Below, in pieces: positions 4,221-63,576 of a stretch of DNA of 64,000 nt; the first letter of the stretch is position 1, and each line of letters opens with the position of its first letter. The notes under the pieces are model-generated. The model did no database searches, had not been told where the DNA came from, and saw only the letters and a program-made list of their open reading frames with translations. The DNA is from Aquirufa antheringensis (GTDB taxonomy: Bacteria > Bacteroidota > Bacteroidia > Cytophagales > Spirosomataceae), in assembly GCF_004307425.1 (NCBI RefSeq), contig NZ_SEWZ01000004.1:186001-250000 (forward strand). The letters are read 5' to 3'. The translations under genes were made by a program, and so were the position numbers.

Positions 4221-5500
4221 ATAATAGTCATCTTGCCAGTATAAAAGCACGATTTGGGATCATTGGCAATGCCCCTGCCCTTTTGCGTGCCATTTCTGTA
4301 GCGGAACAAGTAGCAGCGACGGATATGACCGTATTGATTACAGGGGAAAGTGGTTCAGGTAAAGAATCCTTTTCTAAAATTATTCATTCCCTTTCTAAAC
4401 GCAAACATGGTGCCTTTATCGCTGTAAACTGTGGTGCAATACCGGAAGGAACGATTGATTCTGAATTGTTTGGGCATGAGAAAGGATCTTTTACAGGTGC
4501 TATTGAAGCGCGTAAAGGATATTTTGAAGTAACGGATGGTGGAACCATCTTTCTAGATGAAATAGCCGAAATGCCTCTAGGTACTCAAGCACGGTTGTTG
4601 CGTGTGTTAGAGAATGGGGAATTTTACCGTGTTGGATCCTCTAAAGTACAAAAGACCAATGCGCGCGTTGTGGCTGCCACGAATCTCAACTTACAGCAGG
4701 CCATTGAAAAAGGAAAATTCAGAGAGGATCTGTATTATCGATTAAGTACAGTTCCTATTTACGTTCCACCTTTGCGTGAACGCGGAGATGACATTGAATT
4801 ACTTTTTAGGAAGTTTACGACTGATTTTTCGGAATCACATCGAGTAAAACCGATTATGCTGACGAAAGAAGCAAAAGATTTGCTTCAAAAACAGCGTTTT
4901 CCAGGTAATATACGTCAATTAAAAAATTTGGCAGAACAAATTTCAGTTTTGGAATTAGGCGATCGAATAATAGATGAATTGCAGTTACAGTATTATTTGG
5001 ACTTCAATGAGCCCAAATTAGGCAATTCGGTTGTCAAATCAGATGCTTTTTCCGGTCCTGAGGGAATGAATGAGCGGGAGATCTTGTATAAAATCTTGTT
5101 TGATTTAAAGCGAGATGTAACAGAATTGAAAAAGATATTATTGAAAGTAGTGGAATCAGATCAGTCCAAAGCGTACGAGATTCTACACGATAATATGGCT
5201 ATCTTTGAGGATGTTAGAAATCATCCTGAAGTGAGTAATACCCCTTCTGGATTATCTTTACCTGTACACGAGCAAGAGGAGATGAAATATGAAGATGAAC
5301 CCATTGATTCGAATTATGAAGAGGTCATCTTACCTGCTAACGATGTGACGTTATCCTTAGAGAAACAAGAAAAAGAAATCATTATCCGAGCCTTAAAGAA
5401 GAATAAGAACAAACGTAAGTACGCGGCAAAAGATTTAGGGATCTCGGAGCGTACTTTGTACCGTAAAATCAAGCAATATGATTTGGAAGAAATGGATTAA
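4214..5500 (+). CDS. Sigma-54 interaction domain transcriptional activator with Fis-type HTH, no sensor domain
   Basis: The 428-residue protein begins almost at once with the AAA+ domain: Walker A GESGSGKE (44-51), a GSFTGA loop at 91-96 in place of the usual GAFTGA, and Walker B IFLDEI (112-117). A poorly conserved, acidic linker (about 265-385) follows, then a Fis-type helix-turn-helix with [19 protein letters not shown] at about 407-425. There is no receiver, PAS or GAF domain, so its activity may be set by abundance or a partner. It overlaps miaB by 7 bases and lptE by 23, so it is embedded in an envelope-biogenesis operon. The targets are unknown. Confidence 0.9.
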
Positions 5501-16172: not shown

Positions 16173-17624
16173 CTATCCTACCGAACCTTCTAATGAAATA
16201 GCTAACAGCTTTTGCGCTTCGACTGCAAATTCCATCGGTAACTGATTCAATACTTCTTTAGCATATCCATTAACAATTAAAGCAATCGCCGTTTCGGTGC
16301 TTAAACCACGCTGATTGCAATAAAAGATTTGATCCTCCCCAATTTTGGAAGTAGTCGCCTCGTGTTCAACAGATGCTGTATTATTCTTTACCTCAAGATA
16401 GGGGAATGTATGTGCACCGCACTTATCTCCTAGCAATAATGAATCGCATTGTGAGAAATTCTTAGATCCATCCGCTTTTCTAGCCACTTGAACTAAACCA
16501 CGATACGAATTCTGAGAGAATCCTGCCGAAATACCTTTCGATACAATACGGGACTTAGAATGCTTCCCTAAGTGAATCATTTTAGTGCCGGTATCAGCTT
16601 GTTGGTAATTATTAGTTACCGCAACAGAGTAGAATTCACCAATCGAATAATCCCCTTTTAAGATAACTGATGGGTATTTCCAAGTCACCGCAGAACCAGT
16701 TTCTACCTGAGTCCAAGACAACTTTGAATGCGCACCATCACAAATACCCCGTTTTGTTACGAAATTATAAATACCACCTTTTCCTTCTTTATCGCCAGGG
16801 TACCAGTTTTGTACCGTTGAATACTTCACTTCAGCACCCGCATGTACATAAATTTCTACCACCGCAGCGTGTAATTGATTTTCATCGCGCATCGGGGCTG
16901 TACAACCTTCTAAGTACGAAACATAGGATTCATCTTCCGCCACGATCAGGGTACGCTCAAATTGACCAGTGCCTGATGCATTGATACGGAAATAAGTAGA
17001 TAATTCCATTGGGCAACGAACGCCTTTGGGAATATAACAAAACGATCCATCTGAAAATACGGCACTATTTAACGCAGCGAAGTAATTATCCTTCACCGGA
17101 ACAACGGAGCCTAAATATTTCTTGATTAATTCTGGATGCTCTCTAACAGCCTCAGAAATAGAACAAAAGATCACTCCTTTTTCTGCCAAAGTCTCCTTAA
17201 ACGTTGTCGCTACTGATACAGAATCGATAACAGCATCCACCGCCACATTCGAAAGACGCTTTTGTTCGTCTAATGAGATACCTAATTTCTCGAAGGTTCT
17301 ACGTAATTCAGGATCAATCTCATCCAATGAATTCAATTGCTTCTTTTGAACCGGAGCTGAATAATACTTTAACTCATCGTATTTTGTGGGAGTATACAAT
17401 AAATTAGCCCAATCTGGTTCAGCTAATGTTCTCCAGTATCGGTAAGCGGATAATCGCCATTCCAACATCCAATCCGGTTCATTCTTTTTCTCTGAAATAA
17501 AATGAATGATTGATTCACTTAAACCTATAGGAGCTTCGTCTGTCTCGAAATGAGATTCAAAACCGTATTTATAATCGGTTGAAGTTACTTCTTGTAAAAT
17601 ATCGTCTACTTTCTCTGCCATCAT
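16173..17624 (-). CDS. sufB: Fe-S cluster assembly protein SufB
   Basis: A 483-residue SufB of normal length, with the long N-terminal region, the beta-helix core and conserved C-terminal segments such as [14 protein letters not shown]-like residues (here [14 protein letters not shown]) and [14 protein letters not shown]. SufB is the scaffold of the SufBCD complex that builds Fe-S clusters. The expected partners sufC, sufD and sufS are absent here: upstream is an Lrp regulator and downstream a convergent gene, so sufB appears monocistronic. The start may be either of two adjacent ATGs. Confidence 0.97.
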
Positions 17625-17697: not shown

Positions 17698-18162
17698 CTA
17701 AAATAAAGGCGTGTTTCTGATTAAACTTTCTTCCAAAGAGATAAAGGTTTCTGTCCGTTGAATACCTGTAACGCGCTGAATCTTATCATGTAATACTTCG
17801 CGAAGATGTTGGGTGTCACGGCATATAATTTTAGCAAAGATGGAATAAATACCGGTCGTATAATGGATATTGACCACTTCAGGGATTTGTTCCAACTGTT
17901 TGGCCACATCTTCATATAAACTACTTTTATCCAAATAGATGCCTAAGAAAGCGGTTATATCCCACCCTATTTTCGAATAATCAATGAGCAATTGAGCCCC
18001 TTTTACAATTCCCAAAGATTCCATCTTTTTCATCCGTACGTGAACCGTACCACCTGAAACATCTAAGCGAGAACCAATTTCCGTGTAAGGCAAATTCGCA
18101 TCTTTTACTAAAATTTCCAGTATTTTATAATCTAGAGGATCAAGCTCAAACTTCTTTTCCAT
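17698..18162 (-). CDS. Lrp/AsnC-family transcriptional regulator
   Basis: A 154-residue regulator with an N-terminal winged HTH (LDPLDYKILEILVKDANLPY, then IGSRLDVSGGTVHVRMKKM) and a C-terminal RAM ligand-binding domain (about 70-150, including VVNIHYTTGIYSIFAKIICR). Such proteins sense amino acids and form octamers. It is transcribed toward sufB with 73 bases between them, so whether it controls sufB or distant genes is unknown. The tRNA-like gene lies divergently upstream. Confidence 0.92.
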   Translation of the reverse strand: MEKKFELDPLDYKILEILVKDANLPYTEIGSRLDVSGGTVHVRMKKMESLGIVKGAQLLIDYSKIGWDITAFLGIYLDKSSLYEDVAKQLEQIPEVVNIHYTTGIYSIFAKIICRDTQHLREVLHDKIQRVTGIQRTETFISLEESLIRNTPLF

Positions 18163-18232: not shown

Positions 18233-18263
18233 TTGAAAAATTAAAAATCTCCTTTTATATTTG
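18233..18263 (+). promoter_or_regulatory. Promoter of the tRNA-like RNA gene
   Basis: TTG at 18233-18235 and an exact TATATTTG box at 18256-18263, separated by 20 bases, match the Bacteroidota TTTG-N19-TAnnTTTG pattern closely. A start near 18270 would lie about 28 bases before the folded RNA, giving a short leader for RNase P to remove. Confidence 0.65.
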
Positions 18264-18297: not shown

Positions 18298-18440
18298 TGT
18301 AGGGTGATGAAATTGGCAGACGTGCCCTCCTGTCTCGGGGGTGGTGAGTTCAGGATAAACGCTTCATAATGGGTTGACCACTAAATCAGTTCTGTGTCGC
18401 GGCTAACTGCACCTTGGAGGTTCGAATCCTTCTCCTACAG
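18298..18440 (+). tRNA. Atypical class II tRNA-like RNA with giant variable arm, GUC at anticodon position
   Basis: A cloverleaf can be drawn. Acceptor 18298-18304 pairs with 18433-18439 (7 bp). D stem 18307-18309/18321-18323 encloses a Leu-type loop AAATTGGCAGA. The anticodon stem is CCCTC/GGGGG with loop CTGTCTC (GTC at 18332-18334). T stem GGAGG/CCTTC carries loop TTCGAAT. Between anticodon stem and T stem lie 74 bases whose base pairs as GGTGAGTT/AACTgCACC (18343-18350/18405-18413). A good promoter precedes and a terminator follows. G18440 would be the discriminator, and no CCA is encoded. The total of 143 bases is far above the 85-95 of class II tRNAs. It could be a real unusual tRNA, a tRNA-derived regulatory RNA or a decaying gene; amino-acid identity is unresolved (Asp-like loop, Leu-like D arm). 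Confidence 0.6.
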
Positions 18441-18486
18441 CATTTTAATTAATTTGGTTTTTAGTTTGTTGATGAAGTGTAATGTT

Positions 18487-18518
18487 AAAAGCAATCTTAT
18501 TTTAGGATTGCTTTTTTT
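18487..18518 (+). terminator. Intrinsic terminator of the tRNA-like RNA transcript
   Basis: AAAAGCAATC (18487-18496) pairs with GATTGCTTTT (18506-18515) around a 9-base loop, with the T-run continuing to 18518. It ends transcription from the tRNA-like gene before the peroxiredoxin gene. Confidence 0.88.
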
Positions 18519-32827: not shown

Positions 32828-32901
<74 letters not shown>

Positions 32902-32904
32902 CAT

Positions 32905-63215: not shown

Positions 63216-63576
63216 TAGAGAAAATAAACCGATAAGCCGAATTCTGTCAATGGTTGCCCACCGTCCTATCATTTATCTTCGATAAACATCACTGTTTACC
63301 TGTAGCAATCTACCCACTAGCATCGGACGAGCCACCCTTTTGCCTTGCGGCAGCTAGCCTATTTGATCTTGCAACGCGTGAGGTTTACCTAAGCCTGTTT
63401 TGTCACCAAAACAGCGGTGGGCTCTTACCCCACCTTTTCACCCTTACCCGAAGGCGGTAATTTTCTGTGGCACTTGCTGTTGAATCCGAAGATCCCCCTT
63501 CCAGTTAGGAAGCACGCTGCTCTTTGTTGTTCGGACTTTCCTCTTTAAAAAGCGATAGGATAGTCTATTTTCTCTA
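63216..63576 (-). ncRNA. rnpB: RNase P RNA (M1 RNA), bacterial type A
   Basis: The minus strand carries the conserved core blocks: GAGGAAAGTCCGAAC (P4/CR-I), CACAGAAAATTACCGC, GGTAAGGGTGAAAAGGTGG, GGTAAGAGCCCACCGC, and near the 3' end GACAGAATTCGGCTTATCGG. The termini pair as an 11-bp P1 helix (TATTTTCTCTA at 63566-63576 with TAGAGAAAATA at 63216-63226). The RNA is the catalytic subunit that trims tRNA 5' leaders. Ends are set by P1 and may be off by a few bases. A short plus-strand reading frame inside it is spurious. Confidence 0.95.

Follow-up and report, generated by a model that had tools for sequence, protein, structure and literature searches.

The 64,000-nucleotide stretch of Aquirufa antheringensis DNA analysed here (the window) encodes a tRNA-like RNA with a long variable arm, which is present in a single copy in its own genome. 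The RNA is one of a widely distributed family that has no match in Rfam, and it is more than a chance resemblance, as attested by blastn conservation and by the covariation of its helices. The family combines aspartate identity positions with a pair recognised for amidation and has lost positions needed for decoding; hence, it probably represents a dedicated non-decoding tRNA that acts as the carrier for a conversion of aspartate to asparagine. The wider proposition is more tentative and finely balanced, namely that this RNA gene has replaced the asparagine synthetase gene in much of Bacteroidota, as a never-decoding, AsnC-switched gene that phages carry in the manner of an RNA-encoded metabolic gene.

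The RNA forms a complete cloverleaf. The acceptor stem, the D arm, the anticodon stem and loop, the T arm, and the G at 18440 all lie where the original prediction had placed them. An 8-bp stem had also been proposed at the base of the variable arm (18343-18350/18405-18413); its outer 4 bp are retained, and the comparison of family members replaces the rest by a bulge and a 3-bp stem. The coordinates are collected in Table 1.

Table 1. Features of the tRNA-like RNA and its surroundings, in window coordinates
Feature	Position	Strand	Basis or remark
tRNA-like RNA, positions 1 to 74	18298-18441	+	blastn, family alignment, covariation, coordinates
Acceptor stem, 7 bp	18298-18304 with 18433-18439	+	100% paired in alignment A1
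D arm, Leu-like, 3-bp stem	18307-18323	+	pair 10-25 as A-U, G-C, U-A in A1
Anticodon arm, 5-bp stem	18325-18341	+	covariation, invariant positions
Anticodon loop CTGTCTC	18330-18336	+	G34 18332, U35 18333, C36 18334, U37 18335, C38 18336
Variable arm, whole	18343-18413	+	covariation in two alignments
Variable-arm stem, 4 bp	18343-18346/18410-18413	+	comparison; 4-nt bulge next
Variable-arm stem, 3 bp	18351-18353/18407-18409	+	comparison; strong covariation
Variable-arm internal loop GATAAA/CTAA	18354-18359/18403-18406	+	followed by a tip of very variable length
GGGTTGACCAC word, variable-arm tip	18371-18381	+	kept in part of the family
T arm, 5-bp stem, loop TTCGAAT	18416-18432	+	cloverleaf reading, covariation
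Discriminator G73	18440	+	invariant in the family
Invariant 3' end, C74	18441	+	family comparison
AsnC-like (Lrp/AsnC family) regulator	17698-18162	-	divergent from the tRNA-like RNA, 135 bp apart
Promoter-like TTG-N20-TATATTTG	18233-18235 + 18256-18263	+	motif upstream of the tRNA-like RNA
Terminator hairpin, then T run	18487-18515	+	folding z -5.28

The own genome yields 32 ordinary tRNA matches, including tRNA-Asp(GUC), tRNA-Asn, and tRNA-Leu (UAA and UAG). ARAGORN does not call the tRNA-like RNA in the window, nor at the loci of 17 relatives. A covariance hit to a known family had been envisaged in the original prediction; none of the 4227 Rfam families, which include tmRNA and the group I introns, matches the RNA at gathering score in the window, and none matches it at nine viral loci. 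A loose Rfam scan around the RNA returned weak matches to unrelated families only, and a plasmid search returned no match to it. The folding energy of the lone window sequence is not unusual (z +0.31) and is uninformative. Elsewhere, the window contains an ordinary class A RNase P RNA (63217-63571, minus strand) and an ordinary tRNA-Ala(GGC) (32828-32902, plus strand).

The cloverleaf and the two helices of the variable arm covary. In alignment A1, composed of 19 copies and used for the structure count and then for covariance model R1, 98.1% of the cells pair and 16 of the 28 pairs change on both sides, whereas slid versions reach no more than 59.4% and 6. Another 100 distinct copies, with no sequence in common with A1, give 98.3% and 16 pairs when aligned to R1 (at most 59.4% and 7 for slid versions), an alignment that leans towards the R1 structure because it was fitted to R1. 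The arm stem, for which a covariation check in relatives had been proposed, thus covaries as the 4-bp and 3-bp stems. Within the arm, the word GA[UCA]AAA is found in 78/106, 32/55, and 73/97 distinct copies of three sets, and CUAA in 102/106, 41/55, and 92/97. A word related to GGGTTGACCAC occurs in 42/106, 45/55, and 32/97; its carriers include many viral copies and some cellular ones. The copies range in length from 108 to 211 nt. An arm-less form of 77 nt exists in genome G047 (L141:5338-5414) and retains U1-A72, G2-C71, the loop CTATCTC, and G73; five more genomes of this genus give R1 scores at the same level. It was considered, by eye only, whether the anticodon loop might pair with GAC or GGGAU in the arm; this idea was dropped.

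A lack of conservation in close relatives, which the original prediction had allowed for, was not observed; blastn finds the RNA in 44 of the 59 genomes of the order, the own genome included, and in tandem in some. With R1, 218 of 291 genomes drawn from the order match at E < 1e-18 (hand count) and 289 match at E <= 0.001, the weak matches being largely ordinary tRNAs, judging from those on viral loci. At E <= 1e-18, matches are found in 27/149 genomes drawn from the class and in 15/148 drawn from the phylum. The phylum-draw rows shown, 113 unmatched genomes being unlisted, all belong to the class of the window, and therefore no claim is made beyond the class. A pattern scan of named genomes gave at least 119 stretches, and the 80 matches listed are all Bacteroidota by title, with the genera Chitinophaga, Segetibacter, Dyadobacter, Algoriphagus, Cyclobacterium, Pontibacter, Flammeovirga, and Portibacter among them. 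More than one copy occurs in 50 of 159 cellular loci, some of which overlap, with a maximum of six. Tandem arrays of four to six copies, some nearly identical, are situated at L134, L135, L136, L160, and L240. In the 59-genome table, RNA-positive genomes are those with a best R1 E < 1e-19, plus G049, the copy of which is cut by a contig end; RNA-negative genomes could hide arm-less forms, which are scored poorly by R1.

The identity positions were counted in 106 full-length copies obtained by blastn and R1 without a motif filter, that is, 110 distinct rows minus the four short or cut ones (L041, L141, L155:4718, and L145). These counts are the unbiased ones, because the searches of named genomes and viral contigs used patterns in which part of the anticodon arm was already fixed. 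U1-A72, G2-C71, U35, C36, C38, G73, and C74 are invariant in 106/106 copies, and position 34 is G in 94, A in 11, and C in 1. The Asp-like hints of the original prediction (GUC, C38, and G73) accordingly extend to the family. According to the accessible portions of PMC9976931, G73, G34, U35, C36, and C38 are strong aspartate determinants, G1-C72 and G2-C71 are crucial pairs that bacterial tRNA-Asp conserves, and U1-A72 is the pair on which amidotransferases rely; the portions of PMC4206432 at hand describe the U1-A72 of tRNA-Asn as recognised by GatCAB. The own tRNA-Asp possesses G1-C72, G2-C71, the loop CTGTCAC, and G73, and the own tRNA-Asn possesses U1-A72, C2-G71, the loop CTGTTAA, and G73. 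Since the Asp set and U1-A72 co-occur in the tRNA-like RNA, the code for aspartate is joined there to the mark for amidation. The G1-C72 of bacterial tRNA-Asp is absent, with U1-A72 in its place in all 106 copies, which counts against efficient charging; the long variable arm might also hinder AspRS. A 251-copy table was filtered on T1, G2, U35, and C36, leaving out 28 rows, among them L342 and L175, which hold full-length RNA-like copies without U1.

The positions that serve decoding are lost. Position 33 is T in 87, G in 17, and C in 2 of the 106 copies, and position 37 is T in 97 and C in 9 and a purine in none, so that the U37 noted earlier as unusual proves to be a pyrimidine throughout. 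As controls, U33 and a purine at position 37 are present in 30/30 own tRNAs and, at each position, in 242/244 tRNAs of the viral loci. If a tRNA with such an identity decoded, asparagine would be placed at aspartate codons; the loss of a constant U33 and the pyrimidine at position 37 would prevent this. The invariant Asp set and the lost decoding positions support the earlier suggestion of a non-canonical tRNA or a mimic acting outside translation.

Above the cut-off, the 59 order genomes contain AsnRS in 59, GlnRS in 25, and GatB in 53 cases, the GatB marker being its N-terminal domain. GatB is present in 43/43 RNA-positive genomes. Where AsnRS and GlnRS are both present, translation needs no GatCAB. 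Among the 25 genomes with both synthetases, GatB and the RNA are both present in 21 and both absent from 4, and no genome has only one of the two (Fisher p 8e-5, kinship ignored); the four genomes without GatB fall into two families. The occurrence of GatB in 10 RNA-negative genomes is explained, as all 10 are without GlnRS.

A housekeeping AsnB was found in 6/16 RNA-negative versus 0/43 RNA-positive genomes (p 1.8e-4, kinship ignored), mostly by match span. The calls in RNA-negative genomes were made by PRK09431 above cut-off in the five scanned and by TIGR01536 span in G078. In RNA-positive genomes, absence was judged by the TIGR01536 match span (end near 386 versus 517), save in G047, G052, G072, G083, and G085, from each of which one AsnB-like protein was scanned, with PRK09431 scores of 267-318 against a cut-off of 499. 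Of 12 TIGR01536 matches scanned, 7 are under the housekeeping AsnB cut-off; TIGR01536 itself was rejected as a marker of asparagine synthetase, being too broad (51/59 genomes pass). Exopolysaccharide-type AsnB-like proteins, present in most RNA-positive genomes, might make asparagine. AsnA was found in 8/149 class genomes, and the only RNA-positive one is G047, with its arm-less form. The own genome gave no AsnA match; it has an AsnB-like gene, broken across two reading frames, that scores under the TIGR01536 cut-off.

Around the RNA, the divergent regulator of the Lrp/AsnC family is the sole widely recurrent neighbour, found at 23 of 41 loci (40 loci and the window) by protein clustering; the next commonest, SufB/SufD, is found at 8/41. 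In the window, sufB adjoins the asnC-like gene (16173-17624, minus strand). A peroxiredoxin gene had also been linked to the RNA, but the Prx cluster occurs at 3/41 loci and the link falls away. With tblastn, an AsnC-like gene is divergent from the RNA within 700 bp at 24/40 and 48/79 cellular loci, the gaps listed starting from 122 and 124 bp, and no other arrangement of such a gene near the RNA was found at these 40 and 79 loci. It is not adjacent at 16/40 and 31/79 cellular loci, nor at 77/77 viral loci. The window regulator shares 40% identity with E. coli AsnC over 147 residues, and AsnC is its best NCBIfam match, although the 158.7 bits fall short of the curated cut-off of 227. It contains the segment YTTGIYSIF, which is like AsnC and unlike the Lrp segment given in the available part of PMC4875751. 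The strict AsnC segment is present at only 16/40 and 13/79 loci. The E. coli asnC gene lies divergently 151 bp from asnA, which AsnC reportedly activates, to go by how Kolling and Lother 1985 is titled. Neither asnA nor housekeeping asnB was found to have asnC nearby in the relatives examined, and those stretches were without the tRNA-like RNA.

The original prediction had also given the RNA a promoter and a terminator of its own, and a promoter-like motif and a hairpin (z -5.28) were indeed found. In addition, 89/143 distinct cellular upstream stretches have TANNTTTG 10-60 nt upstream of position 1, versus 6.1 on letter shuffles, and 67/143 have TTG-N17-23-TANNTTTG, versus 0.95; the stretches are related and thus not independent.

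The family extends to viruses. A pattern search located the RNA on 78 viral contigs, some of which may be host fragments, and blastn located a copy with 72.7% identity in the 636-kb uncultured phage record LR756504.1 (L359). R1 detects a full-length copy in 78 of 79 viral loci, the copy in L344 being cut by the contig end. A tRNA gene lies within 1 kb of the RNA at 43/78 viral loci, and at 22/78 the RNA directly follows a tRNA-Ser gene; one viral stretch holds 25 tRNA genes by ARAGORN, and tmRNA is present on some of the contigs that carry the RNA. Ten viral-locus proteins were scanned, giving three PHROGs matches; on L330, these include a DNA ligase and an RNA ligase/tail protein. Should a phage substitute its own tRNAs for the pool of its host, it would need the tRNA-like RNA as well if the host copy were lost.

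Several further structures were observed at the viral loci. Copies at L285, L287, L312, L314, L318, L320, L351, and L357 have a D loop enlarged by a hairpin-like insert some 20 nt long. A second tRNA-like kind resembles tRNA-Leu in its acceptor, D, and T parts, has a long run of unrelated sequence where the anticodon arm would be (L297:4907-5050, L292:7682-7830, and L348:5064-5185 and 5269-5412), and is missed by ARAGORN. L359:4081-5241, immediately ahead of the genes for the RNA and for tRNAs, encodes a protein like a class II aminoacyl-tRNA synthetase (tRNA-synt_2b and HGTP_anticodon). GOLLD RNA is found at L312:8203-8609 and L287:1-301, and both contigs also contain the tRNA-like RNA and tRNA arrays.

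In the proposed mechanism, the RNA would be transcribed from its own promoter, trimmed in the fashion of a tRNA, and supplied with a CCA end. AspRS would then read G34, U35, C36, C38, G2-C71, and G73 and attach aspartate. Subsequently, GatCAB would read U1-A72, which is absent from true tRNA-Asp, and amidate the aspartate to asparagine on the RNA. Hydrolysis would free the asparagine, and AsnRS and metabolism would use it again. In response to asparagine, the divergent AsnC-like protein would control the RNA gene, as AsnC does with asnA in E. coli. Expression, charging, amidation, release, and AsnC control are thus all predicted steps. The carrier reading accounts jointly for the invariant set, the lost decoding positions, the asnC neighbour, the presence of GatB, and the scarcity of synthetases.

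Several alternatives share part of this evidence. The RNA could carry Asp or Asn for a transferase acting on a lipid, a peptide, or a cell-wall precursor, without the amino acid being freed; staphylococci, which have a tRNA-Gly outside protein synthesis, provide the model. The invariant Asp set, U1-A72, the dead decoding positions, and the presence of GatB would all fit, but no transferase gene recurs near the RNA, where the asnC-like gene is the sole widely recurrent neighbour over 41 loci, and neither asnC nor the scarcity of synthetases is explained by such a role alone, which makes it unlikely. A regulatory or decoy RNA appears equally unlikely; it would bind AspRS or GatCAB, or serve as a nuclease target in place of tRNA-Asp, thereby sensing or protecting, with charging not used for synthesis. 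The kept identity positions, the tRNA genes beside the viral copies, and a transcription regulator as the neighbour would suit this role. However, a decoy for AspRS does not need the invariant U1-A72, and the tie to GatB among GlnRS-positive genomes is unexplained unless GatCAB is the target. Decidedly improbable is a third alternative, in which GatCAB is retained because a non-discriminating AspRS lets asparagine be made on tRNA-Asn (the Bdellovibrio route), while the RNA does another job and is lost with the pathway. The own tRNA-Asn does have U1-A72, and such a pathway was demonstrated in bacteria with AsnRS and GlnRS according to the sections of PMC4206432 consulted; the Asp set and U1-A72 on a non-decoding RNA, and its site beside asnC, would nevertheless be unexplained.

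The long variable arm, G73, and the 22/78 viral copies directly after a tRNA-Ser gene could indicate a substrate of SerRS, an enzyme that recognises the arm and G73 as far as the text of PMC7609411 at hand goes. Such a substrate has no need of U35, C36, C38, and U1-A72, all of which are invariant. Furthermore, the G047 form retains the loop and U1-A72 without the arm, and the acceptor and the T stem measure 7 bp and 5 bp; a serine role is therefore very improbable. Hardly tenable is the view that the RNA is a decoding tRNA in decay or of an unusual kind, or that it belongs to a known family (such as Y RNA, tmRNA, or intron-bearing tRNA). The cloverleaf, the viral copies beside tRNA genes, the tmRNA on some contigs, and a UUGAC word in the arm, which recalls Y RNAs, could be counted in its favour. 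Decay is contradicted by deep conservation, by covariation, and by a position 37 that is never a purine, and a known family is contradicted by the absence of any Rfam match of the RNA. A Y RNA was rejected, as the own genome lacks the TROVE partner domain and 43/59 order genomes do so too (it is present in 16/59).

The accessible text of PMC4206432 leaves open why GatCAB is retained alongside AsnRS and GlnRS, and calls it perhaps vestigial in some other bacteria. If the carrier reading is true, it accounts for the retention of GatCAB in those members of this group that possess AsnRS and GlnRS, and for a supply of asparagine without a usual synthetase. It would also present a tRNA that was freed from decoding via positions 33 and 37 while its synthetase code stayed invariant. 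The RNA is of a class rejected by tRNA finders and is consequently missed in genome annotation. A literature search, with thin coverage of subscription journals, found no account of such an RNA.

Among known RNAs, bacterial Y RNA (YrlA) mimics a tRNA and in this respect resembles the tRNA-like RNA. The latter differs in being without an Rfam match and in the absence of the TROVE partner from its own genome. The divergent AsnC-type regulator recalls asnC-asnA of E. coli (151 bp there versus 135 bp here); however, asnA encodes a protein, whereas the partner here is an RNA gene. The pseudo-tRNA 'tRNA-Other' of Bacillus cereus is likewise tRNA-like and outside translation, but it belongs to a single lineage and lies beside a genomic island, and a link to GatCAB or asnC is not mentioned in the available part of PMC3399842. 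In the accessible portions of PMC7609411, the allo-tRNAs and the selC* tRNA-Cys are similarly class II with enlarged arms, some with GUC anticodons; they possess 8/4 or 9/3 acceptor domains and Ser identity, in contrast to the 7/5 domain and the Asp identity set here. A further parallel is the tRNA-dependent synthesis of asparagine on tRNA-Asn, known from Deinococcus, Thermus, Bdellovibrio, and Staphylococcus in the portions of PMC4206432 at hand. As in that route, GatCAB is proposed to convert Asp to Asn on an RNA with U1-A72, with AsnRS present and the usual synthetases often missing (PMC4206432, in part). The tRNA-Asn route, however, uses a decoding carrier and a relaxed AspRS, whereas the RNA described here carries the Asp anticodon set and does not decode, so that an ordinary AspRS would suffice.
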